A stretch of 64,000 nt of DNA from assembly GCF_000337795.1 (NCBI RefSeq), contig NZ_AOLP01000009.1, positions 248,001-312,000 on the forward strand. Reading direction: 5' to 3'. A model generated the notes under the pieces. The model had not been told where the DNA came from, ran no database searches, and saw only the letters and a list, made by a program, of their open reading frames with translations. The translations under genes and the position numbers were made by a program. This document shows, piece after piece, positions 3,371 through 50,853 of this stretch; the first letter of the stretch is position 1; each line of letters begins with the position of its first letter. The DNA comes from Haloferax denitrificans ATCC 35960. Its GTDB lineage: Archaea > Halobacteriota > Halobacteria > Halobacteriales > Haloferacaceae.

Positions 3371-4114
3371 TCAGTCGCTCTGGATGCGCGGGGCGAGCAT
3401 GTACGTGATGGTTCCCATCCCCTCTGCGATCTGGTAGTGAAGCTTGACCGGGAACTCCTCGCCGAGTTCGACGGTGACCTCGGCGTCGGTCGGAATCGCC
3501 TTGTTCATGTCCTTCAGGTAGTCGAGCGAGAACAGCGAGTCGGCCGCGCCCGCTTCGATGCTGATGAGGTCCGCCGGGGGGAGCGACAGGTCCACGTCGT
3601 CGGTGTCGCCCTCGGCCTCGATGTGGAACGTCTCTTCCGCGCCGTCGACGCGGAGGCGGATGTGGTCCGAGACCATGTCGGCCGCCTTGATACCGCGGTC
3701 GAGGTGCGTCCCTTCGAGGACGATGTTCGCGGCGAGGTCGAGGTCCGGGATGTCGGGTTCCTGGCGAATCGAGTCGGGGTCGATGAGCGCGAGCGTGTAC
3801 GACAGCCCGTCGATGCGGATGTTGAGCTTGCGCGTCTCCTCGTCGAGCGTGAGGTGGATGAGGTCGCCCGCGCCCGCCATCCCGGCGACCTCTTCGAGGC
3901 GCGAGAGGTTGACGCCGATGACGCCGCCGTCGGCTTCGTAGGATTCGAACGCCGCCGCGTCGAGCGTGAGGTCCACCATGCCGACGTTCGCGGGGTCGAC
4001 GGCGCGGATGGAGAGACTCTCCTCGTTGAGTCGAATCTTACACTCGTCGACGAGGACGCTCACGGAGTCGAGCGCGTCCCGGAGCGTCGCGGCGCTCACG
4101 ATGGCCTTGAACAT
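3371..4114 (-). CDS. pcn: DNA polymerase sliding clamp (PCNA)
   Basis: Ring-shaped processivity factor that tethers DNA polymerase, FEN1, ligase and RNase H partners to DNA. The 247-residue length and the sequence [19 protein letters not shown]... are those of archaeal PCNA; acidic substitutions replace most surface lysines, as in halophile clamps. The C-terminal MLAPRIQSD corresponds to the LAPKIE tail that lies against PIP-box partners. Transcription probably starts at the ATG: TTTTTAAG (complement of 4138-4146) is centred 28 bases upstream. It sits among other replication genes (priL, orc1/cdc6, rfcA, mcm). Confidence 0.97.
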
Positions 4115-11022: not shown

Positions 11023-11143
11023 ATTCAGCGATTCTCGTGAGAATACTTAACGCCTTTTCAACGGCCGTAACGGCCGTGTTCGGCGCGCCCCCGGAACGGC
11101 GAGTCGCCGGGGGACTGCCGAGACAGTCGCGGGCGACTTCCGG

Positions 11144-13285
11144 TCACTCCGCCGCGCCGCGGGCGGGCGAGAGGTCGCGGCGGCCGCCGACCGTCAGCAC
11201 GAACAGGACGCCGAGACCGACGCCGTAGGCGGCCATCAGCGGGAGCGTCACCATGAACATCGTGGTGATGCTCGCCGGGGTGAACACCGCCGAGATGGCG
11301 AGGATGAACACCGTGACCTCGCGCCAGCGCTTCCGCATCATCCGGTAGCTGACGCCGGCGGTGTTGAGAAGCACCATCAGGATGGGGACGTCCGCGAGGA
11401 GGCCGATGCCCGCGGTCGTGAAGAAGATGAGCCAGAAGAAGTTGGTGATGCGGTAGGAGATTATCATGTTCGCCGCGAGCGCGTCCTCGACGAGGAACGT
11501 GATGACCGTCGGCGCGACGTAGCTGTAGCCGAGCGCGAAGCCGCCGAGGAGGCCGCCGGCGAGCGCGCCGGTCCACAGGAAGACGGTCCGGCGGCGCTGG
11601 CGGATGATGTTGCGCTCGCGGAGTGCGGGCCACGCGAAGTACGCGAGGAGCGGAAGCGTCGCCAACACGGCCAGAATCGTCGAGAACTTCACCTCGAAGA
11701 TGAGCGCCTCCATCGGGTGGAGCGCGACGACGTTGAGCACTTCTTCCGGCGTCACGACGGCGGGGAGCCGGCCGAGGAAGTCCTCGTAGACGTCCCGGAT
11801 ACCGCCCGTGTAGAGCCAGCCGAACGTCACCGCGAGGACGAGCATGAACCAGCCGACGACCCAGAACGCCCGCGAGGTGAGCGAGTCGACGATGAACGCG
11901 ATGTCGGTGTAGTAGCCGCCGATGTCGTCCTCGTCGGTCTCGCCTTCGGTCAGTTCGGCGAAGAACGCGCCGCCCGCGCGAGTCGTCCGGTCTTCGAGTT
12001 CGCCCGGCTCGTCTTCGGCCTCGCGGTCCGCTTCGGCCTCGTCGAACCGGTCGATGAGCGCCTGCGCTTTGGCCTTGTCGCCGTCGTCGATGGCGGCGGA
12101 CGCGAGGCCCATAATCTCGTCTTCGTCGCGGTCGGCGAAGACCTCCGGCGGCGCGGCGCGGACGCCGGCGACGTCGAGCGCCGAGAGGTCGAGCTTCGAG
12201 GGGTCGCCGACGCCGACTTCGGTGCGTTCGATCCGCTCGATGTCGCGGTAGACGAGGTACGCGAGCCCGAACGCGAGGCCGACGACGCCGCCGGCGACGA
12301 CGAACGCGCCCAACGCGAGTTGCGAGCCGGGGTCGAGGAACACGTAGTCGCTTCCGACCGCGGCGAGGCCGTCGTTGACGAGTTCTACGCCGCCGTACTC
12401 GTAGAAGGCGTAGACGAGGAGGCCGCCGACGACGCCGACGCCCGCGAGGTGGTTCCAGTGGTGGGCCGCTGTCGCCTTGACGTCCATCTTCTCGCTCCCG
12501 CGTTTGGCCGTGACGACCACGCGGGCGAGATAGAGGCTGAACGCGTACAGCGAGATGACGGGGACCGCCCACATGATTTGGGTGAACGGGTCCGGCGGCG
12601 TGAACAGCGCGCCGAAGGCGAAGATGCCGACGACGGCGTGCCGCCACTTGTCGCGGAACAGTTCGTAGGGGACGATTTCGGCGTACGAGAGGCCGGTCAT
12701 CGCGAGCGGGAGCTGGCTCGCGAGGCCGAACGAGAGCGTGAGCAGGAAGATGAACTGCGCCCACTTCACGATGGAGTAACTCGGCGTGAAGCCGGCCGAC
12801 AGCGCGTTCTGCGCGAGGAACGCGAAGGTGAACGGGAAGAAGACGAAGTAGCCGTAGGCGACGCCCGCGGCGAACAGCACGACCATCGTCAGCCCGATGA
12901 GCGCGAGTTTCCACGGCGCGACGGGCGATTTGGGCCACGCGCCCCGGGCTTTCAGCGCGTCCCGCGAGACGTAGATGAACGGCGGGACCGCGAAGAGAAT
13001 CCCCACGACGAGGCCGATTTTCGCCTGCAAGAGAATCACGTCGAACGGCGTCTGGGCGATGATGCTGACGTTTCCGGAGACGCTGGCGTCCATCTGCGCC
13101 TTGGTCACGCCCCGGAAGAACCCCCAGACGTAGAGTCGGAGCGCGTAGAACGTGCCGAGGAACCCGACGAGGAAGACGATAAAGACCTTCTGGAGGTCCT
13201 TTTGCGCCGCTCGGAGCATCGCACCGGCGGTCTCGCGGCCTGCCGCGATGGTCTGTTGGGTGTCCTCGTCGAGGGCGCTGGACAT
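11144..13285 (-). CDS. tatCt: Twin-arginine translocase TatCt (tandem TatC fusion)
   Basis: A 713-residue membrane protein consisting of two TatC domains (residues about 30-260 and 470-700) joined by two extra membrane spans and an acidic cytoplasmic linker (about 345-445), giving about 14 spans. TatC recognises the RR signal peptide of folded exported proteins; haloarchaea send most secreted proteins through Tat, and this double form is restricted to them. The Pro/Glu-rich loops IPLAM-like QLPLAMTGLSYAEIVPYELFRDKWRHAVVGIFAFGALFTPPDP and its C-terminal counterpart RMMRKRWREVTVFILAISAVFTPA match the TatC signature. Divergent from tatCo with 130 bases between. Confidence 0.94.
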   Translation of the reverse strand: MSSALDEDTQQTIAAGRETAGAMLRAAQKDLQKVFIVFLVGFLGTFYALRLYVWGFFRGVTKAQMDASVSGNVSIIAQTPFDVILLQAKIGLVVGILFAVPPFIYVSRDALKARGAWPKSPVAPWKLALIGLTMVVLFAAGVAYGYFVFFPFTFAFLAQNALSAGFTPSYSIVKWAQFIFLLTLSFGLASQLPLAMTGLSYAEIVPYELFRDKWRHAVVGIFAFGALFTPPDPFTQIMWAVPVISLYAFSLYLARVVVTAKRGSEKMDVKATAAHHWNHLAGVGVVGGLLVYAFYEYGGVELVNDGLAAVGSDYVFLDPGSQLALGAFVVAGGVVGLAFGLAYLVYRDIERIERTEVGVGDPSKLDLSALDVAGVRAAPPEVFADRDEDEIMGLASAAIDDGDKAKAQALIDRFDEAEADREAEDEPGELEDRTTRAGGAFFAELTEGETDEDDIGGYYTDIAFIVDSLTSRAFWVVGWFMLVLAVTFGWLYTGGIRDVYEDFLGRLPAVVTPEEVLNVVALHPMEALIFEVKFSTILAVLATLPLLAYFAWPALRERNIIRQRRRTVFLWTGALAGGLLGGFALGYSYVAPTVITFLVEDALAANMIISYRITNFFWLIFFTTAGIGLLADVPILMVLLNTAGVSYRMMRKRWREVTVFILAISAVFTPASITTMFMVTLPLMAAYGVGLGVLFVLTVGGRRDLSPARGAAE

Positions 13286-13415
13286 ACGTACGTGGCGAAA
13301 GCAGTCTGGCGGTTATCAATCTTTTTCACCGCGGGCGTGATTTCGACCCCCTCGACGCGCCTCCTCGGCGCGATGCGAAAAGACCTATAACTGGCCGGAA
13401 GCGTAGGACACCTGA

Positions 13416-14915
13416 ATGGCGGACGAGGAGCGCGACACAGGGCTCTCTGCGGCCGACGACGAGACGGATGCCTCGGGCGACGCCGACCAGCGCTCGTCCG
13501 ACGAGTCTGGCGACGACGGGCCTTCGTCGTCCGACGGTCCGGTTTACGGTCGAGTCACCCCGCGAGACGAGGCCGTCACCGACGGGTTTGACGACGGCGA
13601 GACCGACGACGCTCCTGACGAGACGGACGACGACGCTCCCGACGAGACGGACGACGACGCTCCCGACGAGACGGACGACGACGCTCCCGACGAGACGGAC
13701 GACTCCAACTCGGGCGACGACGATTCTGACGAGACCGGCGACGCCGACGGCGCTTCCGGCGATACTGACGACAGCGACGACGGCGACGACCCGGACGACG
13801 GCAACGACCCGGACGACGGCGACGACCCGGACGACGGCGACGACCCGGACGACGGCAACGACCCGGACGACGGCGACGATAGCGCTTCCGGCGACGCCGA
13901 CGAGCCCCGCCTCCTCGCCGACGACGAACACACCTCGCACGTTCCCGAGGGGACGTACGACGATTCGCCCGAGGCGTCGGCCGACGCCGGAGCCGGACCG
14001 AACGCGGCGGCCGACGACGCGACCCCCGCTCTTTCGGGCGAGGACGAGGTGACCGGCGTGGCCCCGTCGACCGCGCCCGTCGAGGACGACTTCGACGACG
14101 AAGACGTGGGCGGCCTCGTCGGCGAGGCCCCCGAAAGCGACCAGGAGATGCCGCTGACCGCGCACATCGAGGAGATGATTCGTCGGTTGGCGGTCGTCCT
14201 CGGCGTCGCCGGCGCGATTACGCTCGTGCTCTTCCCCGGCGCGGACATCCTCAACGCGCTCGTGGACACGCAGGCCGCCTTCGGCGTCCACATCCCGAGC
14301 GCGACCGACGTCATCAACTTCCTCTGGAACTCCCACATCCCCGGCGCGGAGACCATCGTCGACCGCCGGCCGCGACTCTACGGCCCGCTCGAACTCATCC
14401 TCACCAAACTGAAGGTCGCCGGCCTCGCCGGGACCGTCATCGGCCTCCCCGTGTTCGTCTACGAGACGTACCTGTTCATGCGCCCCGGCCTCTATCCGAA
14501 AGAGCGCAGATACTACCTCGCGGCCGTCCCGACGAGCCTCATCCTCGCGCTCGTCGGCGTCCTCTTTGCGCACTTCGTGGTGCTCCCGGCCATCTTCGCG
14601 TACTTCACCTCCTACACCGAGGGGACCGCGGTCGTCGCGTTCGGTCTCAAAGAGACGTTCAACCTCATCCTCATTCTGATGGGCTACATGGCGGTCGTCT
14701 TCCAGATTCCGCTGTTCGTGGAGCTGGCCATCATGATGAACCTCGTCACCCGGCGGTGGCTCGAAGACCGCCGCCTGCTGTTCTGGGGCGCGTTCCTCGG
14801 CCTCGCGTTCCTCGTCAGCCCCGACCCGACCGGGATGGCCCCCATCATCATCGGCGCGACGATGATCGTCCTGTTCGAGGGGACGCTCGCGGCCCTGCGC
14901 TGGACCGGGAACTGA
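13416..14915 (+). CDS. tatCo: Twin-arginine translocase TatCo with long acidic repeat N-terminus
   Basis: A 499-residue TatC. The six-span TatC core occupies residues about 245-495 (MPLTAHIEEMIRRLAVVL... FLVSPDPTGMAPIIIGATM). Ahead of it is a roughly 240-residue, almost entirely Asp/Glu/Gly/Ser region with tandem repeats, predicted disordered and cytoplasmic; normal TatC N-termini are under 40 residues. The core carries the conserved Glu and FxxPxF-like motifs needed for signal-peptide binding. CCTATAAC at 13383-13390 gives a transcript start just before the ATG. It pairs functionally with tatCt, the essential Tat components of haloarchaea. Confidence 0.92.
   Translation: MADEERDTGLSAADDETDASGDADQRSSDESGDDGPSSSDGPVYGRVTPRDEAVTDGFDDGETDDAPDETDDDAPDETDDDAPDETDDDAPDETDDSNSGDDDSDETGDADGASGDTDDSDDGDDPDDGNDPDDGDDPDDGDDPDDGNDPDDGDDSASGDADEPRLLADDEHTSHVPEGTYDDSPEASADAGAGPNAAADDATPALSGEDEVTGVAPSTAPVEDDFDDEDVGGLVGEAPESDQEMPLTAHIEEMIRRLAVVLGVAGAITLVLFPGADILNALVDTQAAFGVHIPSATDVINFLWNSHIPGAETIVDRRPRLYGPLELILTKLKVAGLAGTVIGLPVFVYETYLFMRPGLYPKERRYYLAAVPTSLILALVGVLFAHFVVLPAIFAYFTSYTEGTAVVAFGLKETFNLILILMGYMAVVFQIPLFVELAIMMNLVTRRWLEDRRLLFWGAFLGLAFLVSPDPTGMAPIIIGATMIVLFEGTLAALRWTGN
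13607..13882 (+). repeat. Two in-frame tandem repeat arrays in tatCo
   Basis: Array 1 (about 13607-13705) repeats a 24-base unit encoding DETDDDAP about four times; array 2 (about 13785-13882) repeats an 18-base unit encoding DDPDDG or NDPDDG six times. Copies are nearly identical at DNA level, including synonymous positions, which suggests recent expansion by slippage or unequal crossing-over. Copy number is likely to vary between strains; both unit sizes keep the frame. Confidence 0.9.
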
Positions 14916-15025
14916 CCGGCTTCTCGTTTCTCCCGTCTCCCCCTCGGCCGGTTCGCTCCTCCTCGTTTCCGCCGACCGCCGACCGTTCAGAAGACCTATC
15001 TTAGAATGGTTAGAATATCTATACG

Positions 15026-15349
15026 ATGGCCGACCTCGTCGCCCTGTCGGTGGTCGCCCTCCCGCTCTGGTTCGTCGTGAGCGTCTGGGCCGGCATCGAC
15101 GCGACCAGGCACAGTTCGCACAACGCCTTCCTCTGGGGTTTCTCGGTGTTCGTCGGCGGGGTTCTCGGCTTGGCGCTGTACCTCAACCTCGGGCGCGACG
15201 AACCCGGGGTTGGTCGCCGCGCGGCCGGTCAGTCGGCGTCGCCGAACGGCGTCCCTTCCGTCCGCACCGAGACCGTCACCTGTCCGAACTGCCACTCGTT
15301 GGAGGAGTCAGGGAGAGACACCTGCCGTTTCTGCGGCGAGTCGCTGTAA
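15026..15349 (+). CDS. Small membrane protein with C-terminal zinc ribbon
   Basis: A 107-residue protein with two N-terminal membrane helices (about residues 4-24 and 34-54) and a C-terminal double-CxxC zinc ribbon (CPNCHSLEESGRDTCRFCG). The layout resembles the haloarchaeal PLDc_N/zinc-ribbon membrane proteins, but no function is known. A TATA-like TTAGAATGG/AATATC tract lies at 15001-15020, close to the ATG. It is convergent with the SRPBCC gene. Confidence 0.75.
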   Translation: MADLVALSVVALPLWFVVSVWAGIDATRHSSHNAFLWGFSVFVGGVLGLALYLNLGRDEPGVGRRAAGQSASPNGVPSVRTETVTCPNCHSLEESGRDTCRFCGESL

Positions 15350-15377
15350 CGCGCCGAATCCCCGAGACCGCGGGAAA

Positions 15378-15860
15378 TCACGCCGCGTCCGTCGACTCCG
15401 CCGCCTCCCGTTTCTCGGCCGCGACCACTCCCTCGACGCGCGTCTTCAGCCCCTCGTTCATGGCGACGAACCCCGCCCGCGTCTCGTCGCCGACGAACCG
15501 CAACAGGAGTCCGGCGAAGACGCCCGAGAACGTCTCGGACTGCTCGAATCGGGTGCGCTCGCCGCCGTCGAGCGGTTCGAGGCGGAACCGGTGTTCGCCG
15601 TCGAACAGCCCCGGGAAGACGAGGTGGCCGAGCCAGCGCAGTTCACGGTGCTTCTCGCAGTGGGTCACGTCGGGTTCGAACTCCGACTCGCGGCCGCCCG
15701 GCGGCCGCAGGTGGACGGTGAGCGTCGCGCCCTCGTTCGGCCGCCCGGCGATTCGCATGAACGGGTTCCACTCGGGGTAGCGGTCGAAGTCGACGAGGGT
15801 CTCCCACACCCGTTCGGGCGGGGCGTCTATCTCGATGCTCGTTTCGAGTTCGTGTGCCAT
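15378..15860 (-). CDS. SRPBCC-family (START/Bet v1-like) protein
   Basis: A 160-residue polyketide-cyclase-like ligand-binding protein. The family start HELETSIEIDAPPERVWETLVDFDRYPEWNPF is clear (strand, alpha1, the conserved PxxVWxxLxDxxxYPxWNP motif), and the C-terminal amphipathic helix is FVAMNEGLKTRVEGVV. Such proteins bind hydrophobic ligands or act as putative toxin/cyclase homologues; the ligand is unknown. ATG at 15860 preferred over the upstream TTG at 15866. Divergent from the phosphatase at 15935, only 74 bases apart. Confidence 0.85.
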   Translation of the reverse strand: MAHELETSIEIDAPPERVWETLVDFDRYPEWNPFMRIAGRPNEGATLTVHLRPPGGRESEFEPDVTHCEKHRELRWLGHLVFPGLFDGEHRFRLEPLDGGERTRFEQSETFSGVFAGLLLRFVGDETRAGFVAMNEGLKTRVEGVVAAEKREAAESTDAA

Positions 15861-15934
15861 ACCCAACAGTTGGCGCGCCGAGACCGTGAATCTCGCGCGG
15901 AACGTTCATTGCCGGTGGGGAGAGAGACGGACGT

Positions 15935-16573
15935 ATGGCAACCCTCCTTCTCGCCAGACACGGCGAGACGACGTGGAACCGCGCCGGGCGCATACAGGGG
16001 TGGGCCCCCGTGTCGCTCACCGAGCGCGGCCGCGCGCAGGCCGACGCCCTCGCGCGCCACGTCGCGGACTCCTACGAGGTCGACCGCCTCGTCTCCTCTG
16101 ACATCGAACGCGCCCAAGAGACCGCCCGCCCCGTCGCTCGCGAACTCGGGCTCGAACCCGTCCTCGACTCCGCGTGGCGCGAGCGCGACGTGGGGTCGCT
16201 TCAGGGGCTCGAATTCGACGAGCTCACGGACCGGTACCCGCAGTACTCCCTCTCGGCCGTGGGGACGCCCGCCGCCCGCGAGCGCCCCCCGAGCGGCGAG
16301 AGCCTCGTCGAGGTCCGCCGCCGCGTCCTCAACGCCCGCAAGGGGCTCGCCGACTCGCTCGCCACCGACGAGACGGTGCTCGTCGTCAGCCACGGCGCGC
16401 CGATTCGGCTGTCGCTCGGCGAGGTGAAGGGACTCGACGTCGTCGAGGCGATGCTGTCGCAACCGCTCGACAACGGCGGCATCTGCGAGCTCGAAGTCGA
16501 ACTGAGCGACGACGGCGACGAGCCGTCCGTCCACGTCGTCGCCGAGAACGAGACGCGATTCCTGACGACGTAG
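15935..16573 (+). CDS. Histidine phosphatase family protein (phosphoglycerate-mutase-like)
   Basis: A 212-residue member of the branch-1 histidine phosphatases. The catalytic phospho-acceptor motif is LARHGETTWN (His at residue 9), the second Arg is in SSDIERAQETA, the general acid Glu is in WRERDVGSLQG, and the second His is in VLVVSHGAPIR. Most likely a small-molecule phosphatase (GpmB/CobC-like) rather than a glycolytic mutase, given its 212-residue length. No operon partners on its strand; larE converges from the other side. Confidence 0.9.
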   Translation: MATLLLARHGETTWNRAGRIQGWAPVSLTERGRAQADALARHVADSYEVDRLVSSDIERAQETARPVARELGLEPVLDSAWRERDVGSLQGLEFDELTDRYPQYSLSAVGTPAARERPPSGESLVEVRRRVLNARKGLADSLATDETVLVVSHGAPIRLSLGEVKGLDVVEAMLSQPLDNGGICELEVELSDDGDEPSVHVVAENETRFLTT

Positions 16574-16603
16574 GCCGTTCTGCGGGCGATTGGGCGATTC
16601 TCG

Positions 16604-16648
16604 GTGGGGTCGCGGCGCTCGCGTTTCCTCGCGTTTCCTCGCGTTCCG
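16604..16648 (+). terminator. Imperfect CGCGTTTCCT repeats, probable bidirectional terminator
   Basis: Between convergent genes the sequence holds three near-copies of CGCGTTTCCTC/CGCGTTCCGC (16619-16648). T/C-rich direct repeats in this position are a plausible termination region; no strong hairpin was seen. Confidence 0.3.
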
Positions 16649-16649
16649 C

Positions 16650-17546
16650 TTACTTCCGCATCGGGTAGTCCTGCGCGAACACGTCGTCCACGAGGAGGTC
16701 GTCGTCGCCCGCGTCGGCGTCCGTACCCGCCTCGGCCGCGGGGCTGACGCTCCCGGTTCGGTAGCCGTGGAGGTCGAGCGTGACGTGGTCGAAGCCGGCG
16801 TCCTTCAGGTGGTCGCGGGCGGCGCGGACGAAGTCGGTGTCGAGCGCGCGGTCGAGTTCCTCCGGCGCGACCTCGATGCGGGCGAGGCCGTCGTGGTCGC
16901 GGACGCGGAACTGCTCGAAGCCCCACGTCCGGAGAATCGTCTCGGCGCGTTCGACCCGCGAGAGCCGTTCCTCGGTGACTTCGAGCCCGGTCGGAATCCG
17001 CGAGGAGAGACAGGCCATCGAGGGCTTGTCGGCGACCGACAGGTCGTAGTCGTCGGCGATGGCGCGGACCTCCTCTTTCGTGATGTCGTGGGCGAGAAGC
17101 GGCGACAGCACCTCTAACTCCTCGACGGCGCGGAGGCCGGGGCGGTGGCCCTCGCCGGGGTCCGAGGCGTTGGTCCCGTCGCAGACGGCCTCGATGCCGC
17201 GGTCGCGGGCGGCCTCGTACATCCGGCCGAGGCGCATCGTCCGGCAGTGGTAACACCGGTCGTCGTCGTTGGCGACGAAGTCGGGGTTGTCCAACTCGGA
17301 GAACTCGACGGTCAGGTGTTCGATGCCGATTTCCTCGGCGACGCGCCTCGCGTCGTCCAACTCGGCGTCCGGCAGGGTCTCGCTTTTCGCGGTGCAGGCG
17401 ACCGCGTCGTCGCCGAGCGCCTCGTGGGCGAGTGCGGCGACCACGCTGGAGTCCACGCCGCCCGAAAAGGCGATGAGGACGCTCTCGCGCTCCGCGAGCG
17501 CCTCGCGTACTTCGTCGGCCTTCGCCGCGACGTCTCGCTCGCTCAT
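16650..17546 (-). CDS. larE: ATP-dependent sacrificial sulfur transferase LarE
   Basis: A 298-residue PP-loop enzyme that transfers sulfur from its own or cluster-bound source to make the nickel-pincer nucleotide cofactor of lactate racemase LarA. The ATP PP-loop is FSGGVDSSVVAAL (residues about 25-37); CYHC near residue 98 and the Cys in SMACLSSRIPTG near residue 180 correspond to sulfur-donor or cluster-binding positions of the family. Start ATG at 17546 gives a normal-length protein. LarB, another enzyme of the pathway, is at 22685. LarA and LarC are not in the window. Confidence 0.92.
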   Translation of the reverse strand: MSERDVAAKADEVREALAERESVLIAFSGGVDSSVVAALAHEALGDDAVACTAKSETLPDAELDDARRVAEEIGIEHLTVEFSELDNPDFVANDDDRCYHCRTMRLGRMYEAARDRGIEAVCDGTNASDPGEGHRPGLRAVEELEVLSPLLAHDITKEEVRAIADDYDLSVADKPSMACLSSRIPTGLEVTEERLSRVERAETILRTWGFEQFRVRDHDGLARIEVAPEELDRALDTDFVRAARDHLKDAGFDHVTLDLHGYRTGSVSPAAEAGTDADAGDDDLLVDDVFAQDYPMRK

Positions 17547-43443: not shown

Positions 43444-44022
43444 CTACTGGGCGGCGATGGCGTCGGAGCGGACGATGCCGACCGCGGCGGCGATTTTGAA
43501 CGCCTCGGCGGGGATGAACGCGGCGGAGGCCGTCCAGAACGCGGATTCGAGGCCGACGCGATTGACGTACGCGAAGCCGACCGTCCCGAAGGCGTAGACG
43601 ACGACGGTGCCCGCGACCATCGCGCCGACGAGTCGGGCGGTGCGCACGCGGTGGTCGCCGACGCTGATGCCGCCGTGGACGACGAGGCCGACGACGGCCG
43701 CGGCGACGGGGTACGACCAGAGGTAGCCGGCGGTCGGTCCGACGAGGGGTGCGAGCCCGGCGGAGCCGCCGGCGAACACCGGCGCGCCGAGGCCGCCCGC
43801 GACGAGGTAGAGCGCGATGGAGCCGCCGCCCCAGACGGGACCGAGGAAGATGCCCGCGAGGAAGACGACGAGCACCTGCATCGTCACCGGAATCGGCGAG
43901 ACGGGGTTCGGGAACGAGACGTAACCGCTCGCGCCCATGAGCGCCGCGAACAGGGCGGCGCGGGCGATGTTGCCGACGAGTTCGTCGCCGACGAGTTCGA
44001 CTGACTCGCGTTCGGTTGCCAT
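43444..44022 (-). CDS. bioY: Biotin transporter substrate-binding subunit BioY
   Basis: A 192-residue, six-span S-component. The BioY landmarks are FPNPVSPIPVTMQVLVVFLAGIFLGPVWGGGSIALYLVAGGLGAPVFAGG and the GPTAGYLWSYPVAAAVVG loop that contacts biotin. It is the first gene of the bioYMN operon and lies directly downstream of a BirA-type operator (44038-44065), so biotin should repress it. Confidence 0.95.
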   Translation of the reverse strand: MATERESVELVGDELVGNIARAALFAALMGASGYVSFPNPVSPIPVTMQVLVVFLAGIFLGPVWGGGSIALYLVAGGLGAPVFAGGSAGLAPLVGPTAGYLWSYPVAAAVVGLVVHGGISVGDHRVRTARLVGAMVAGTVVVYAFGTVGFAYVNRVGLESAFWTASAAFIPAEAFKIAAAVGIVRSDAIAAQ

Positions 44023-44037
44023 GCTCGTCGCTGTCTC

Positions 44038-44065
44038 GTAAACCCAGTTTAACTTATCGGTTTAC
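44038..44065. promoter_or_regulatory. BirA-type biotin operator over the bioY promoter
   Basis: GTAAACC (44038-44044) and GGTTTAC (44059-44065) form a perfect 7-base dyad separated by 14 bases. The established BirA operator is TTGTAAACC-N14/15-GGTTTACAA, so arms and spacing agree. The spacer, read towards bioY, contains AAGTTAAAC, a TATA-like box about 26 bases from ATG 44022; the operator therefore encloses the promoter and a bound repressor would block TBP. The regulator gene is not in the window. Confidence 0.85.
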
Positions 44066-44184
44066 GGAGTTCGCGGCCGGAGTGCCGGTTCGGGCCTCGT
44101 CGGTCGATTCGAGTCGTCTCGCCGGCGCTCGGGCGGCTCTCGGGTCAGCATCATTAAAGACGCTGGGCGTGCCATTCTCCGGGT

Positions 44185-44790
44185 ATGGACGAGAAGACCG
44201 CCGAACTCCGCGACATCTTCATCGAGGCGACCGGCTCGGACACCGTGACCGAACAGCAGTCCGAGTCGCGCGGGTCGCTCGCCGACGTGGACGACCCCGA
44301 AGCGGTCCGCGAGGGCGTCCGCGACACCGTGGCGACGATGCGCGAGCGCTACGCGTTCGACACCGACCTCGACGACGACGCGCTCGTCGCGCTCGTCGTC
44401 GGCTACTTCGACGGCGACGCGGACGCCGACCTCGCGGTCGAACTCGACGCGTCGCCCGAGGCGGTTCGCACCGCCCGGTTCGACCTCCACCTCGTCCGCG
44501 ACGCCGACCGCGAGTTCCCGTTCGACGCCGACCGATTCGACAACCTGCTCGTCGACGGCGCGGACGACGAGACCATCGCCGAAGCGCTCGACGTGCCCGC
44601 CGAGGTCGTCGCCGAGTGCCGCCCCGTCGCCGAGGCGGACATCCGTTCGAGTCGGGCCAACTACCGCTTCCGCGACGACTTCGCGGAGCTGTTGACCGAC
44701 GACGACCTCTCGAACCGGATGGCCGAGGACGCCCGACGCGACGGCCTCCGCGAGGCGACAGAGGACATCGAGACCGACGTGTCACTGTAG
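44185..44790 (+). CDS. Conditioned-medium-induced protein 4 homologue (Cmi4-like)
   Basis: A 201-residue acidic helical protein with two repeated HTH-like helical units (LVALVVGYFDGDADADLAVELDASPEAVRTARFDLHLV and DRFDNLLVDGADDETIAEALDVPAEVVAECR), each ending in an A-x-x-L-x-V/A-S/P-pattern reminiscent of a helix-turn-helix. I recall this haloarchaeal family by the name conditioned medium-induced protein 4; molecular role unknown. ATTAAAG at 44153-44159 supports ATG 44185. It precedes mcm by 53 bases; mcm has its own TATA-like TTAACC. Confidence 0.78.
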   Translation: MDEKTAELRDIFIEATGSDTVTEQQSESRGSLADVDDPEAVREGVRDTVATMRERYAFDTDLDDDALVALVVGYFDGDADADLAVELDASPEAVRTARFDLHLVRDADREFPFDADRFDNLLVDGADDETIAEALDVPAEVVAECRPVAEADIRSSRANYRFRDDFAELLTDDDLSNRMAEDARRDGLREATEDIETDVSL

Positions 44791-44843
44791 CGGTCGGTCA
44801 GACGACGAAGGTTCTTAACCACTTGGGGACATACCCCTGTGCG

Positions 44844-47800
44844 ATGGCGCAGGCCCCCCAGAACCGAGACCTGACGGAGCGGTTCATCGAGTTCTACCGA
44901 AACTACTACCGAGAGGAGATCGGGACGCTCGCACAGCAGTACCCGAAGGAAAAGCGGTCGCTGTACATCGATTACGACGACCTCTATCGGTTCGACGCGG
45001 AGCTCGCGGACGACTACATCACGAAGCCCGGCCAGTTCCAGGAGTACGCGGAGGAGGCCCTGCGCCTGTTCGACCTCCCCGCGGACGTGAAGCTCGGGCA
45101 GGCGCACGTCCGGATGCGCAACCTCCCCGAGGCGGTCGATATCCGGAACATCCGGGTCAACGACGACCACATCGGGACGCTCATCTCGGTGCAGGGCATC
45201 GTCCGCAAGGCGACCGACGTGCGCCCGAAAATCACGGAGGCCGCCTTCGAGTGCCAGCGCTGTGGGACGATGAGCTACATCCCGCAGGGCGACGGCGGCT
45301 TTCAGGAACCCCACGAGTGTCAGGGATGCGAGCGTCAGGGGCCGTTCCGCATCGACTTCGACCAGTCGAACTTCGTCGACTCCCAGAAACTGCGCGTTCA
45401 GGAGTCCCCCGAGGGCCTGCGCGGGGGCGAGACGCCGCAGTCGATCGACATCAACCTCTCTGACGACGTGACCGGCAAGGTCACCGCCGGCGACCACGTC
45501 ACCGCCGTCGGCGTCCTCCACATCGAACAGCAGACCTCGGGCAACGAGAAGACGCCCGTCTTCGACTACTACATGGAGGGCATCTCGCTCACCATCGAAG
45601 ACGAGGAGTTCGAGGACATGGAGATATCCGACGAGGACGTGGCCGAAATCGTCGAACTCTCGAACGACCCGGCCATCTACGAGAAGATGGTCGAGTCCGT
45701 CGCGCCCGCCATCTACGGCTACGAGCAAGAGAAGATGGCCATGATTCTCCAACTGTTCTCGGGCGTCACGAAACACCTGCCCGACGGGTCGCGGATTCGT
45801 GGCGACCTGCACATGCTGTTGATAGGGGACCCGGGTACCGGGAAGTGTGTCGACGGAGACACGCGAGTCACGCTCGCCGACGGGCGAGACGTGCCGATTC
45901 GAGAGTTGGTCGAATCGAACCTCGACGACCCGAAACCCATCGACGACGGCGTCTGGGACACCGCGGAGTTCACCGTCCCGTCGCTCGGCCCCGACGGAAC
46001 GCTCACGCCGCGACAGGCGACGAAAGTCTGGAAGCGAGAGGCTCCGGACCGAATGCTCCGTATCCGGACGAACACCGGCCGCGAAATCGAGGTCACTCCC
46101 TCCCATCCGTTGTTCACCCGCACCGACGGGGTGACGACTGCGGTCAGGGCGGACGGCCTAACCGAAGGAGCGTTCCTCGCGGCACCGAACTCGCTTCCGG
46201 CGACGGGTCGGGACGAACTCGACGTCGACTTCCGGCGCTCGAAGTCTCACAACGCGATTCGACTCGAACTCCCAGACGAGTGGGAGCCTTGGCTCGCCCG
46301 GCTCATCGGCTACATCGTGGCTGAGGGGTACGTCGAACAGCGCGACGATGCGACCGGGTTCGTCTCCGTCACGAACAACGACCGCGAAGTGCTCGACGAC
46401 GTGGCAGACGCGTTCGACCGCCTCGGCGTCAACCACTTCGAGCGGTCCTCGCACGAAGGAAAGCGCGCGCGTGAGGTCATCTGTGGGTCCGGCGAGCTCG
46501 TTAGCTTCCTCGAAAACCTCTCCCCGACGCTCTTGGCGGGCTCGGCCGAGCAACGAATCCCGGAGCAGATCATGTCTGCGAGCGCGGGCACCGGGCGGGC
46601 GTTCCTCCGCGCGCTCATCGAAGGCGAAGGCCACGTCTCGGCGAGTCAACGAGAGATAACGGTCGCCTCGATGAGCCGCGAACTCCTCGAAGACGTTCGA
46701 ACGCTCCTGCTCACCGCTGGCATCCGGTCGCAACTGCGCCCCCGACACAACGGGAGCTACCGGCTCCGAATCAGCGGTGACGACTTCGAGACGTACGTCG
46801 ACGAAATCGGATTCGTGACCGAACGGAAGTCGCTCGCAACCGCCGAATTCGTGGGAACGGACGGGAACACGAACACCGACTTGATTCCCGCCGGCGGAGA
46901 GCTTCGGGAACTCCGCGAGGAACTCGGGCTCACGCAGGCCGAATGCGGGCTTCCGCGGTCGACGTACCAGCACTACGAACGGGGCGACCGAACCCCGAGT
47001 CGCGGAAGCCTCTCCCGTGTCGTCTCGGCGTTCGAAGACGCACTACAGAGCCGAGACGGCGAGGGGGCACGAGCGGTCGCTGACGGGGGGCGCTCGGTTG
47101 TAGACCGCGTCTCTGAACTCCGGTCGCTCGTCGACGGCAACGTCGCTTGGGAGTGCATCGAGTCGATAGAGCGCGTCGAACCCGCCGAAGAGTGGGTGTA
47201 CGACCTCGAAGTCGAAGGCACCCACAGCTACGTTTCCAACGGGCTCGTCTCGCACAACTCTCAGATGCTATCGTACATCCGCCACATCGCGCCCCGGTCG
47301 GTCTACACCTCCGGCAAGGGTTCGTCCTCGGCGGGTCTCACCGCCGCGGCCGTCCGCGACGACTTCGGCGACGGCCAGCAGTGGACGCTCGAAGCCGGCG
47401 CGCTCGTCCTCGCGGACAAGGGTATCGCGGCGGTCGACGAGTTGGACAAGATGCGGCCCGAGGACCGCTCTGCGATGCACGAGGGGCTCGAACAACAGCA
47501 GATTTCGGTCTCCAAGGCCGGCATCAACGCGACGCTCAAGTCGCGGTGTTCGCTCCTCGGCGCGGCGAACCCGAAGTACGGTCGCTTCGACCAGTACGAG
47601 CCGATCGGCGAGCAGATAGACCTCGAACCCGCGCTCATCTCCCGGTTCGACCTCATCTTCACGGTCACGGACGACCCCGACCCCGACGAGGACTCGAAGC
47701 TCGCGGACCACATCCTCAAGACCAACTACGCGGGCGAGCTGAACACCCAGCGGACGAACGTCGCCAACTCCGAGTTTACCGAACAGCAGGTCGACGCCGT

Positions 47801-48365
47801 CACCGACGAGGTCGCGCCCACCATCGACGCGGACCTGCTTCGCAAGTACATCGCCTACGCGAAGCGCACCTGCTACCCGACGATGACCGACGAGGCGAAG
47901 CAGGTCATCCGCGACTTCTACGTCGACTTCCGCGCCCGCGGTGCCGACGAGGACGCGCCCGTCCCCGTGACCGCCCGGAAGCTCGAAGCGCTCGTCCGCC
48001 TCGGCGAGGCCTCGGCCCGCGTCCGCCTCTCGGACAAGGTGACCCGCGAGGACGCAGAGCGCGTCACGGGAATCGTCGAGTCCTGTCTGCGCGACATCGG
48101 CATGGACCCCGAGACCGGCGAGTTCGACGCCGACATCGTCGAGACGGGTCGGTCGAAGACCCAGCGCGACCGCATCAAGAACCTGCTCGAACTCATCCGC
48201 ACCATGCAGGAAGAGTACGAGGAGGGCGCGCCCCACGAGGAGGTCCTCGAACGCGCCAACAGCGAGCTGAACATGGACGAGAAGACGGTCAACGACCAGC
48301 TTGACAAGCTCAAGATGAAAGGCGACATCTACGAGCCCCGCGGCGACGTGTACCGCGCGACGTAG
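44844..48365 (+). CDS. mcm: Replicative DNA helicase MCM with in-frame intein
   Basis: A 1,173-residue precursor; removing the 471-residue intein leaves 702 residues, normal for haloarchaeal MCM. Extein parts: N-terminal zinc motif CQRC...CQGC (about 135-165), Walker A GDPGTGK split from its Ser by the intein, then Walker B AAVDELDKM, sensor LLGAANPKYG, arginine finger ALISRFDLIFTV, and a C-terminal winged helix. It unwinds DNA at forks with PCNA, primase and RFC, all in this window. A TTCTTAACC element near 44811-44819 predicts a leaderless mRNA. Splicing is essential for function, since the P-loop is interrupted. Confidence 0.96.
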   Translation: MAQAPQNRDLTERFIEFYRNYYREEIGTLAQQYPKEKRSLYIDYDDLYRFDAELADDYITKPGQFQEYAEEALRLFDLPADVKLGQAHVRMRNLPEAVDIRNIRVNDDHIGTLISVQGIVRKATDVRPKITEAAFECQRCGTMSYIPQGDGGFQEPHECQGCERQGPFRIDFDQSNFVDSQKLRVQESPEGLRGGETPQSIDINLSDDVTGKVTAGDHVTAVGVLHIEQQTSGNEKTPVFDYYMEGISLTIEDEEFEDMEISDEDVAEIVELSNDPAIYEKMVESVAPAIYGYEQEKMAMILQLFSGVTKHLPDGSRIRGDLHMLLIGDPGTGKCVDGDTRVTLADGRDVPIRELVESNLDDPKPIDDGVWDTAEFTVPSLGPDGTLTPRQATKVWKREAPDRMLRIRTNTGREIEVTPSHPLFTRTDGVTTAVRADGLTEGAFLAAPNSLPATGRDELDVDFRRSKSHNAIRLELPDEWEPWLARLIGYIVAEGYVEQRDDATGFVSVTNNDREVLDDVADAFDRLGVNHFERSSHEGKRAREVICGSGELVSFLENLSPTLLAGSAEQRIPEQIMSASAGTGRAFLRALIEGEGHVSASQREITVASMSRELLEDVRTLLLTAGIRSQLRPRHNGSYRLRISGDDFETYVDEIGFVTERKSLATAEFVGTDGNTNTDLIPAGGELRELREELGLTQAECGLPRSTYQHYERGDRTPSRGSLSRVVSAFEDALQSRDGEGARAVADGGRSVVDRVSELRSLVDGNVAWECIESIERVEPAEEWVYDLEVEGTHSYVSNGLVSHNSQMLSYIRHIAPRSVYTSGKGSSSAGLTAAAVRDDFGDGQQWTLEAGALVLADKGIAAVDELDKMRPEDRSAMHEGLEQQQISVSKAGINATLKSRCSLLGAANPKYGRFDQYEPIGEQIDLEPALISRFDLIFTVTDDPDPDEDSKLADHILKTNYAGELNTQRTNVANSEFTEQQVDAVTDEVAPTIDADLLRKYIAYAKRTCYPTMTDEAKQVIRDFYVDFRARGADEDAPVPVTARKLEALVRLGEASARVRLSDKVTREDAERVTGIVESCLRDIGMDPETGEFDADIVETGRSKTQRDRIKNLLELIRTMQEEYEEGAPHEEVLERANSELNMDEKTVNDQLDKLKMKGDIYEPRGDVYRAT
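45846..47258 (+). mobile_element. MCM intein (LAGLIDADG endonuclease type) with extra HTH domain
   Basis: Precursor residues 335-805. Splice block A: CVDGDTRVTLADG with Cys1; block B: TNTGREIEVTPSHPLFT; blocks F/G: WVYDLEVEGTHSYVSN...VSHN, with His-Asn at the end and Ser as +1 extein residue. Between them two LAGLIDADG-like helices (ARLIGYIVAEGY near 46300 and FLRALIEGEGHV near 46600) keep acidic active-site residues, so the homing endonuclease may be active. After them (about 46876-47040) is a Cro/C1-type helix-turn-helix (LRELREELGLTQAECG...YQHYERGDRTPSRGSLSRV). Insertion directly inside Walker A is a known conserved MCM site. Confidence 0.93.
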
Positions 48366-48620
48366 ACATTCCTCGCCCGAGTCTTGGCCGATGGCGTCGA
48401 TGTCAACCGGTCTGGGGGCCTGTGGACGGTCTCGATTCTCCCCTCTCACAAGCACCGTGATAGTCAAAACTGCAAAATCTATGAAATCACTCGCCGGAAA
48501 TCTATCGTCGCCGAATTCTTAGAGGGGCCTCCGGAGGAGCAGTCAGAGCAATCTCTCTTTGATCACAACCCCTACTTCAGATCGAGACGGTTACACTCTC
48601 CTCGCTTCGAGTACACCGAT

Positions 48621-49130
48621 GGGGTGTATCCGCAACATAAGGCTCGAACAGGGGTGTAGCCAGCTATCGCCCGTGGTGCTGTCGTGAAACGCTCGCCAGA
48701 CACCCGTTTCGAGACGTCGACGTGAACCCGAATACTGGCTCAAACAGCGCTGAAAACTCTATCTACGACGATTTCAACCACTGGCAATTCGCTCTGATTC
48801 TCTGTCAGTATCGGGTGATTATTCGAGGGGACAGCATATCTCTACATCCCCGATACACCCCACCTACGTCGTGGTGTACCGGCAATACGGACTCTTGGTA
48901 CAGTACAGAATCCGGGTTGTGCAGGAATCCAAAATTCACTAACTCAGAGGCTCAAGGCCTATCGCGGATATTCATGGCCATGTAGACTATCCACGAACTC
49001 ATTCGAACAGATGTTGAAGACGCCTTGTGAACGTCTTGTTGCGGATACACCCGTGCCCTGTATCGGTGATATAGTACACACTCAGTCTTCGAGTCAAACT
49101 TGAGATTTTATTGGCAGCCGACAGGGGTGT
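48621..49130. repeat. Repeated GGGGTGT motif upstream of the recombinase genes
   Basis: GGGGTGT occurs at 48621-48627, 48651-48657 and 49124-49130 (+) and as ACACCCC at 48855-48861 (-). Two copies extend into a 15-base inverted pair: GGGTGTATCCGCAAC at 48622-48636 matches the complement of 49038-49052; the copy at 48852-48861 shares GATACACCCC. Also ACAGGGGTGT is shared by 48648-48657 and 49121-49130. By chance less than one heptamer copy is expected in 500 bases. Likely protein-binding sites, perhaps for the recombinase. Confidence 0.7.
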
Positions 49131-49138
49131 CGGCTGCC
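49113..49138. repeat. Perfect 26-base palindrome before recombinase genes
   Basis: GGCAGCCGACA (49113-49123) is mirrored by TGTCGGCTGCC (49128-49138) around a GGGG centre. It starts just after TTTTATT (49106-49112), a TATA-like box whose predicted transcript start (about 49135) falls inside the right arm, and ends 18 bases before ATG 49157. Arms of 10-11 bases around a short core are also the layout of a tyrosine-recombinase crossover site. It may be attachment site, autoregulatory operator, or RNA hairpin. Confidence 0.85.
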
Positions 49139-49156
49139 TGAAGCGGTCGAATTCGT

Positions 49157-49636
49157 ATGAATCGACGAAAATCAAACAACGTACACCGGCGGATGGGCAT
49201 CTACAAACAACTGAATGAGGTCCCCTCTCGATCGCGACTAGAGCGGTTTGAATCGACGTTTGAAACACGAGATGTGTGGGATGAATTCGTCAAATCACGG
49301 AACCCCAATTTCGATTCGAACGCGTATCGTGCAACGTTGCGGAAAGCAGGGTCGGCATTCACGTCGTACATAGAGTCACGGGGTCGACATCATGCATGTG
49401 CAAGACCGACCGACGTGGAAGCGTGGCTTGCAGAGTTAACGGAGACGCGGACGCTCAACACAGTCTACTCTGAATACTGGATTCGTGTTGAAGAGTTCTT
49501 CACTTGGCTGCAGCGGCATCCAGGATACCCACACGTGTATCATCCCGTGTGGATGGCGGCGGCGAGCTATCCCACAGCAAAGGCGCTGTGGGCGAGGAAG
49601 ACTGGCACAATGACGTCAGGAGGTGCACCGCAATGA
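49157..49636 (+). CDS. Catalytic-domain-less tyrosine-recombinase N-terminal-domain protein
   Basis: A 159-residue basic protein. Its body aligns by eye with the N-terminal core-binding domain of the recombinase encoded next: both have F/YESTFE, then a NAY/QAY helix, then SRGRHHAC versus SVGRHPAC, then a final amphipathic helix ending in WLQ/YWQ and a P-rich PHV/PHDPG segment. There is no Arg-His-Arg-Tyr catalytic domain; the frame stops after TSGGAPQ. The stop overlaps the next ATG (ATGA at 49633-49636), so the two are made together. It could bind the same DNA and act as accessory or inhibitor. Codon usage differs from core genes. Confidence 0.72.
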   Translation: MNRRKSNNVHRRMGIYKQLNEVPSRSRLERFESTFETRDVWDEFVKSRNPNFDSNAYRATLRKAGSAFTSYIESRGRHHACARPTDVEAWLAELTETRTLNTVYSEYWIRVEEFFTWLQRHPGYPHVYHPVWMAAASYPTAKALWARKTGTMTSGGAPQ

Positions 49637-50766
49637 CCGACGACTATGACTCGACGGGCGATGCACTTCGCGACGAAATTGGTGCCGCGTTCGAACGGGA
49701 ACGTGATCCCCTGTCGGTATACGAGTCGACCTTCGAAGCACTGACGGTGGATCCATTTGAGGTATTCCTGAAATGTGGTCTCGAACCGGACGACCCTGCT
49801 CCCAGAACCACACAAGCATACCAGCAACTCATCGACGAGTGGACCCACCATATGTCCAGTGTGGGACGTCATCCGGCATGCCCGAGCGAGGACCATATCC
49901 TGCGGTACGTGGAGAACTGTCTCTCAACGCGAGAGCTGAAGCCCGTGACAATTCGGACACGGCTTCACCGACTCAATCGAGTGTATCGCTACTGGCAGGC
50001 CGATTCAGTGTTTCCGCACGACCCTGGCTACAATCCGTTCCAGTATGTATTCGCGACAACGGATTTGTCACAGCCTCCCTCGAAAGACCCACCGAGAATT
50101 TCGCCAACGCGCCTCGGTGAAATCGTCCGCACGATCACCGATGTCCGCGACCGTCTCATTGTCGTCTTGCAACTCAAACTGGGTCTGCGGGCGGGTGAGG
50201 TGAGTAACCTTCGACTGGCGAACCTCGCAGTTGACCACGAGGAACTGAACACAGCGTACCCTGGACTTGGGACAAATCCTGTCGTTGAGGACCTTTCCCA
50301 GGTGGTTTACATCCCGTCGAGATACGAAGAACAGGGGAATAAGTCACACCGAGCGCGACTCCTCCCACTAGACGACGAGGTGTACCAGTCACTCGTGCAG
50401 CACTTATTGGTACGACCAGATACGGGGAGTCAGTGGGTGTTTCAGAGTCATACGACAGCTTCGCAAATCACCCCTGAAGCTATCAACCGCGTGTGGACTA
50501 GCGTGTTCAGGCCAGAGTACGACGAGACCGATGTTCATCGAGCGGTGACGAGTCATTACGGGCGGCATCGATTTAGCACATACTGGCAAGTCGAGTGTGA
50601 AATCCCACGTGAGTTGGTTCAGTATATGCGTGGAGATCGAATTGAGAGTGCTGACCCGAATCGAGAGACGATTGACAGCTATATACATACATACTATGAG
50701 GATATCGAGACTGTATATCTAGAAAATATGTACTCGTTGGGGCTTTCAACCGAATTCTCGTTGTGA
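49633..50766 (+). CDS. Tyrosine recombinase/integrase
   Basis: A 377-residue site-specific recombinase. N-terminal core-binding (SAM-like) domain about residues 45-150, catalytic domain about 165-365. Catalytic residues: Arg in LKLGLRAGEVSNLR, Lys in EEQGNKSHRARLLPL, H-x-x-R-H in TSHYGRHRFSTYW, and Tyr in the IDSYIHTYYEDIETVY segment; the usual second His position reads YMRGD, as in several haloarchaeal integrases. All residues for activity are present. Lower G+C and less biased codons than neighbours suggest recent transfer. No tRNA or flanking att duplication was recognised. Confidence 0.88.
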   Translation: MTDDYDSTGDALRDEIGAAFERERDPLSVYESTFEALTVDPFEVFLKCGLEPDDPAPRTTQAYQQLIDEWTHHMSSVGRHPACPSEDHILRYVENCLSTRELKPVTIRTRLHRLNRVYRYWQADSVFPHDPGYNPFQYVFATTDLSQPPSKDPPRISPTRLGEIVRTITDVRDRLIVVLQLKLGLRAGEVSNLRLANLAVDHEELNTAYPGLGTNPVVEDLSQVVYIPSRYEEQGNKSHRARLLPLDDEVYQSLVQHLLVRPDTGSQWVFQSHTTASQITPEAINRVWTSVFRPEYDETDVHRAVTSHYGRHRFSTYWQVECEIPRELVQYMRGDRIESADPNRETIDSYIHTYYEDIETVYLENMYSLGLSTEFSL

Positions 50767-50853
50767 TGCGGTTGAACTCTGGGTTAAAATCCAACAATCA
50801 CCAGCGATCGAGACGCACGACCGCTCTCCCAAAATAGTCGACGCCGCGCGCGC

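Follow-up and report, generated by a model that had tools for sequence, protein, structure and literature searches.

The 64,000-nucleotide stretch of Haloferax denitrificans ATCC 35960 analysed here (the window) carries, next to mcm, a tyrosine recombinase gene (P2) that is preceded by a short gene (P1), and the question arises what a small protein that looks like the DNA-binding part of the enzyme would contribute to a recombinase that already appears complete. From our point of view, the pair is best understood as the integrase module of a haloarchaeal family of integrative elements, with P1 as an obligate accessory protein that does not cut DNA, a reading to which we assign a probability of about 0.72.

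A predicted core-binding protein beside a complete recombinase

A preliminary description of this DNA had reported a complete recombinase that is coupled by an ATGA overlap to a 159-residue protein, and both reading frames are indeed present as described (Table 1). Its proposal that the short protein shares the N-terminal DNA-binding domain of the recombinase was borne out by profile-profile comparison of the two families (14 sequences each), in which hhalign aligned residues 26-139 of P1 with residues 25-144 of P2 (probability 97.5, E 8.5e-12). AlphaFold2 predicted the same order of helices in P1 (pLDDT 90.5; helices 28-35, 40-47, 55-73, 84-97, 100-120, 130-137 and 139-149) and in the N-terminus of P2 (pLDDT 84.1; helices 28-36, 41-53, 57-76, 86-98, 104-123 and 135-142, followed by the catalytic domain). 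With VIA-align, the best 22 rows for P1 were recombinase core-binding domains only (Z 7.1-9.7), led by XerD, the N-terminal domain of a Haloarcula integrase, lambda Int, Cre and XerA, and unrelated folds started in the next row, at Z 4.0 and below; a Foldseek search with the P1 structure returned nothing up to E 0.001. Profiles and models thus indicate that P1 is a core-binding domain that shares its origin with the N-terminal part of P2 and has no catalytic domain.

The catalytic domain of P2 matches PF00589 (Phage_integrase, E 2.4e-11) and shows the R-K-HxxR-Y pattern, with R186, K237, H308, R311 and Y350 invariant among 14 sequences. Tyrosine recombinases usually have His or Trp at the second His/Trp position, which is taken by Asp335 in most P2 family sequences. 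P2 stays far below the cut-off of the NCBIfam model for XerA (45.7 vs 220 bits). Between the genome of the window (G000) and genome G002, dN/dS values (YN00) of 0.066 for P2 and 0.20 for P1 point to purifying selection that still acts on both genes.

Table 1. Positions of the features discussed in the text. Positions are those of the window, except for the nop5 elements, which are counted within their own loci.
Feature	Position	Strand	Basis or remark
Segment replacing 5.2 kb of other genes of same-species genome G197	48362-50832	.	genome comparison
Non-coding region from mcm to P1, carrying the conserved site array	48366-49156	+	comparison of G000, G002, G004 and G005
Probable decayed 3' end of a lipoprotein gene	48500-48542	+	KSIVAEFLEGPPEE resembling FTFVADFFEELPDE; alignment with G004/G005 and lipoprotein sequence
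Block A, two direct GGGTGTA sites (48622 and 48652, 30 bp apart)	48609-48683	+	cross-genome comparison
Dyad core CGATACACCCCACCTACGTCGTGGTGTAC, crossover-like inverted pair	48851-48879	+	cross-genome comparison
Block B, inverted GGGTGTA sites (49047; degenerate near 49074)	49030-49079	-	cross-genome comparison
TATA-like box TTTTATT	49106-49112	+	sequence
Palindrome, 11-bp arms, GGGG spacer	49113-49138	.	likely operator over the promoter
P1, predicted stand-alone core-binding-domain protein, 159 aa	49157-49636	+
P2, tyrosine recombinase, 377 aa	49633-50766	+
nop5 element L250	about 11087-16760	nop5 on +	counted on the reverse complement
nop5 element L240	near 18753	nop5 on +	counted on the reverse complement
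nop5 element L251	2673-18722		other end retains the displaced 5' fragment of the host gene, as in L250

Pairing and distribution

Among 391 haloarchaeal genomes, 55 carry P1, at 62 loci in total, and at 60 of these P1 lies directly ahead of P2; seen from the enzyme, 60 of 66 family P2 genes are paired with P1, the unpaired ones being mostly truncated. A second pair is found in the genome of the window itself, on contig C17, and among 98 relatives there are 15 near-family recombinases with P1 directly upstream. Judged from these gene neighbourhoods, the pairing is obligate. Since P1 shares the domain, has no catalytic part and is obligately paired with the enzyme, a DNA-binding partner that does not cut represents the best reading. 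The preliminary description had arrived at such a partner, and of its parts the shared domain, the missing catalysis and the pairing all held, with DNA binding being what we infer from them.

At 34 of 54 loci P1 is preceded by a third gene, P0, which overlaps or abuts it and is absent at the window locus; the members without P0 are spread over several clades of the P2 tree. The pattern of the sequence, together with Pfam matches that are weak and below threshold, suggests that P0 is composed of a ribbon-helix-helix-like N-terminus, a coiled coil and a winged helix.

Relatives as integrative elements

When related operons are compared across genomes, homology ends at the P2 stop codon and is followed by a variable segment of 0-4 kb and then by the same host gene. 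From reading their proteins, we take these host genes to encode nop5-fibrillarin, a beta-CASP RNase, a secretion ATPase and a MutY-like protein. In the nop5 group, comparison with eight congeneric genomes places the start of homology exactly at nt 253 of nop5. The elements bring a 5' end of their own for the gene, and that of the host has been displaced by 5-16 kb, namely to about 5 kb upstream in L250 and about 16 kb upstream in L251. The displaced fragments terminate in the core ATGGACGA, reading CGATGGACGA (L250) and GCGATGGACGA (L251) at their ends, and the intact nop5 reads GCTATGGACGACTG at the junction (GCTATGAACGACTG in L250). The core ATGGACGA is present at the nop5 junctions, where the DNA of the supplied 5' ends is near-identical and the rest of the stretch has diverged; in L250, an inverted repeat, ATAGTATTCGT / ACGAATACTAT, surrounds this core when both junctions are taken together. 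Such junctions show a precise integration of the recombinase type inside the gene by which nop5 is restored. The nop5 elements illustrate how mobile DNA can insert into a housekeeping gene for RNA modification and leave it functional.

The place of integration could be fixed exactly for nop5 and less exactly for a second target, and the other targets are read by analogy. This second target is a MutL-like gene, a segment of which is duplicated around the operon in L173 with 70% DNA identity. A search for long, exact direct repeats on both sides of the operons gave L173 as the only convincing case; in L049, the operon is flanked by such a repeat of 264 bp, which may be an assembly artefact. With regard to the variable segment, L162 carries a gene at +1611 to +4424 from the P1 start whose product, by sequence reading, resembles a PHP-AAA (TrlF-like) defence protein; such a defence-like gene in the cargo of the nop5 elements would tie the module to the exchange of accessory genes among haloarchaea. 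A variable gene after P2 in L164 presumably encodes a DUF2971-like protein, likewise by sequence reading. The segment of about 1.9 kb that follows P2 on contig C17 of the window's genome (L041) is absent from the corresponding locus of G002 (L039); it was rejected as cargo, being an IS insertion by eye.

These comparisons lead us to regard the operon as the mark of integrative elements in the relatives, and since these relatives, which occur in many other haloarchaea, would place small mobile elements at exact positions within genes, P1 probably helps to aim or to regulate P2. In the mechanism that we propose, P2 would cut and join DNA in the manner of tyrosine recombinases at a short core inside the target gene, P1, an obligate accessory subunit, would bind sites of the recombinase type, leave them uncut and build or bias the recombination complex, and P0 would join in most members as a third DNA-binding protein.

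Comparison with described systems

The preliminary description knew of no system with a comparable duplication of the binding domain. This was too strong a statement because MpsB stands alone and RitA has two core-binding domains. On SGI1, a recombinase-family protein (MpsA) is accompanied by a separate small core-binding-like accessory (MpsB), and a site is located upstream of the operon (PMC9299015); P1, here likened to MpsB by description, is similarly a stand-alone core-binding-like partner. However, MpsA, although like a tyrosine recombinase, has no core-binding domain of its own and works in conjugative transfer (PMC9299015), whereas P2 is complete and its relatives appear to integrate elements. 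One could also imagine that P2 is a relaxase-like nickase with P1 as its accessory and the site array as oriT, as has been proposed for MpsA/MpsB, which is the closest described two-protein layout (PMC9299015), and P0 does match the NikA and TraM relaxosome families, weakly and below threshold. As P2 has its own core-binding domain, in contrast to MpsA, and as the nop5 junctions point to integration of the recombinase type, we regard this as very improbable.

RitA recombinases of RIT elements also show a duplicated core-binding domain, yet both copies reside in one chain of a catalytic protein (PMC8138268), whereas the second copy is here the separate P1; a row of three recombinases of the RIT type was not found in the P1-P2 operon. 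Like the present elements, the GInt system (ginABCD) has a recombinase operon of several genes at one end, cargo that starts from the stop codon of its final gene and insertion into genes; it reportedly has not been encountered in archaea (PMC5385486). A cargo start of this type is seen in the relatives, with the window copy being free of cargo. GInt differs in that it uses three recombinase-like proteins plus GinD (PMC5385486), whereas a GinA-GinB-GinC-type trio was not encountered in the P1-P2 operon, which has a single catalytic recombinase, a protein predicted to be a core-binding domain only and often P0. In the pleolipovirus SNJ2, a haloarchaeal tyrosine integrase, IntSNJ2, is accompanied by two small co-transcribed helpers (a coiled-coil and a MarR-like DNA-binding protein), which raise recombination and are dispensable (PMC8371274). 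Neither helper is described there as a core-binding domain (PMC8371274), and P0 resembles them in domain types only; P2 found no match in the phage collection at E 1e-3, a collection that may not include SNJ2. The P1-P2 module hence differs from each of the four systems in a tested feature, and an obligate stand-alone core-binding protein beside a complete tyrosine recombinase would, if true, represent a new control of site-specific recombination.

A conserved site array in front of P1

The low-G+C island noted in the preliminary description is evident (51-57% vs 64-73% around it), and in G000, G002, G004 and G005 its non-coding part shows four blocks whose order is kept and whose spacing is nearly kept, namely two direct sites, a dyad core, inverted sites, and the TATA-like box with the palindrome. 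The remainder of this region is hard to align except between G000 and G002, and the spacing of the array is kept across proteins of 68-69% identity. In G004, the dyad core has perfect 9-bp arms and a 7-bp spacer. The cluster of motifs first described as iterated GGGGTGT was confirmed, since six GGGTGT/ACACCC copies were reached in 0 of 1000 dinucleotide shuffles of 48366-49156 (mean 0.39), and is better read as GGGTGTA/TACACCC, most copies of which fall in the four blocks. By analogy, the layout is reminiscent of an attP and its arms, and the window copy would thus have an attP-like site array in front of the pair. The composite sites gave no Rfam match at gathering scores, with one weak hit at chance level in the window.

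Similar sites also occur apart from the pair. The core pattern (up to three mismatches) is present 1-6 times per genome in nine of ten Haloferax genomes, some of which are without the pair, and the reversed control pattern gave zero hits in the Haloferax genomes. Block A, dyad core and block B recur together with near-fixed spacing at about nine unlinked Haloferax loci (L199-L216; for example L212, near 3959-3987) that have no neighbour gene in common and no recombinase gene nearby. G000 and G002 share one such copy, in place of which G197 has 32 bp, a strain variation at one locus; at L212, no clean insertion ends and no target duplication were found. We hypothesise that the dispersed arrays are connected with the recombinase. 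One could speculate that P1, as a dead core-binding subunit made together with the enzyme, partly fills the sites and sets the direction of the reaction, and that the dispersed arrays are non-autonomous partners moved or used by the enzyme family, a tentative idea that we think somewhat unlikely.

The palindrome as a putative operator

The palindrome, GGCAGCCGACA-GGGG-TGTCGGCTGCC, was correctly described with 11-base arms and is rare by chance, palindromes with such arms being found in 2 of 1000 dinucleotide shuffles of the non-coding region. It lies between the TATA-like box and the P1 start codon, and in G002, G004, G005 and the C17-type paralogues it is likewise preceded by TTTTAT or TTTAT. 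L150, L152, L143 and L042 show palindromes with compensatory changes in the arms at about the same distance from P1. The palindrome occurs directly before P1 only in loci without P0; it was not found there in any of the 34 P0-bearing loci, and a search before P0 in these loci did not find it as a rule. The earlier idea that it could be the crossover site does not fit with this distribution, nor with the nop5 elements, where the crossover would take place at the short core ATGGACGA. It is more likely that the palindrome represents an operator, through which P1 may also repress the shared promoter in operons like that of the window. The preliminary description had further raised the question whether the palindrome and the GGGGTGT motif travel with the pair; the palindrome was seen in loci without P0 only, and the motif accompanies the pair only in the Haloferax subclade and in L151.

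It is conceivable that P1 is nothing but the repressor of the operon and takes no part in recombination, as the place of the palindrome between TATA-like box and start in the P0-less operons and the compensatory arm changes would suggest. Yet P1 is retained with equal strictness in loci that have P0 and lack the palindrome, and its translational overlap with P2 suits a subunit that is made in step with the enzyme. We hence consider a purely repressive P1 to be quite unlikely and favour the accessory subunit, for which the DNA binding and the role of P1, the operator function and the role of the site array are all inferred.

History of the window locus

In other Haloferax genomes, mcm and a MinD-like gene are separated by 5-11 kb of other genes. 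The preliminary description had proposed to look for an empty site in strains without the island; G197, of the same species, holds 5.2 kb of other genes there, with breakpoints at window positions 48361 and 50833, and the genes missing from the window interval were not found as a block elsewhere in G000. For the window copy, neither a clean empty site nor a flanking repeat was found, and it has no recognisable ends and no located recombination junction. P2 is followed by the MinD-like gene after about 88 bp, leaving no cargo. A lipoprotein gene follows mcm in other Haloferax; it is kept ahead of the pair in G004, a 3'-end remnant is left in G005 and the window has a probable one (Table 1), so that the pair probably sits behind the lipoprotein gene and the neighbouring genes were deleted. 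The window copy is a cargo-less and probably old resident form which, as we read it, would still be active; it could also be a domesticated or a dying remnant.

It is in this context that one may ask whether the pair is a domesticated chromosomal recombinase, serving dimer resolution or local inversion with the array of about 450 bp as its own res-like site. The window pair is chromosomal and free of cargo, the spacing of the array is conserved and dN/dS is low. Moreover, P1 was absent from the plasmid records, in which a Haloarcula plasmid gave one partial match to P2, P2 was absent from the phage records (E 1e-3), and neither was found in viral contigs. On the other hand, the pair is limited to 55 of 391 haloarchaeal genomes, whereas a different, Xer-like recombinase, which forms a separate and lower-scoring group from P2, is near-universal in the relatives; furthermore, relatives of the pair appear to mark integrative elements. 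Domestication of the pair is hence unlikely in our view, and the integrase module remains the preferred reading.

As a minor observation on the neighbouring gene, the mcm reading frame (window positions 44016-48365) seems to be interrupted by an intein-like insertion that follows the GTGK motif of the ATPase.
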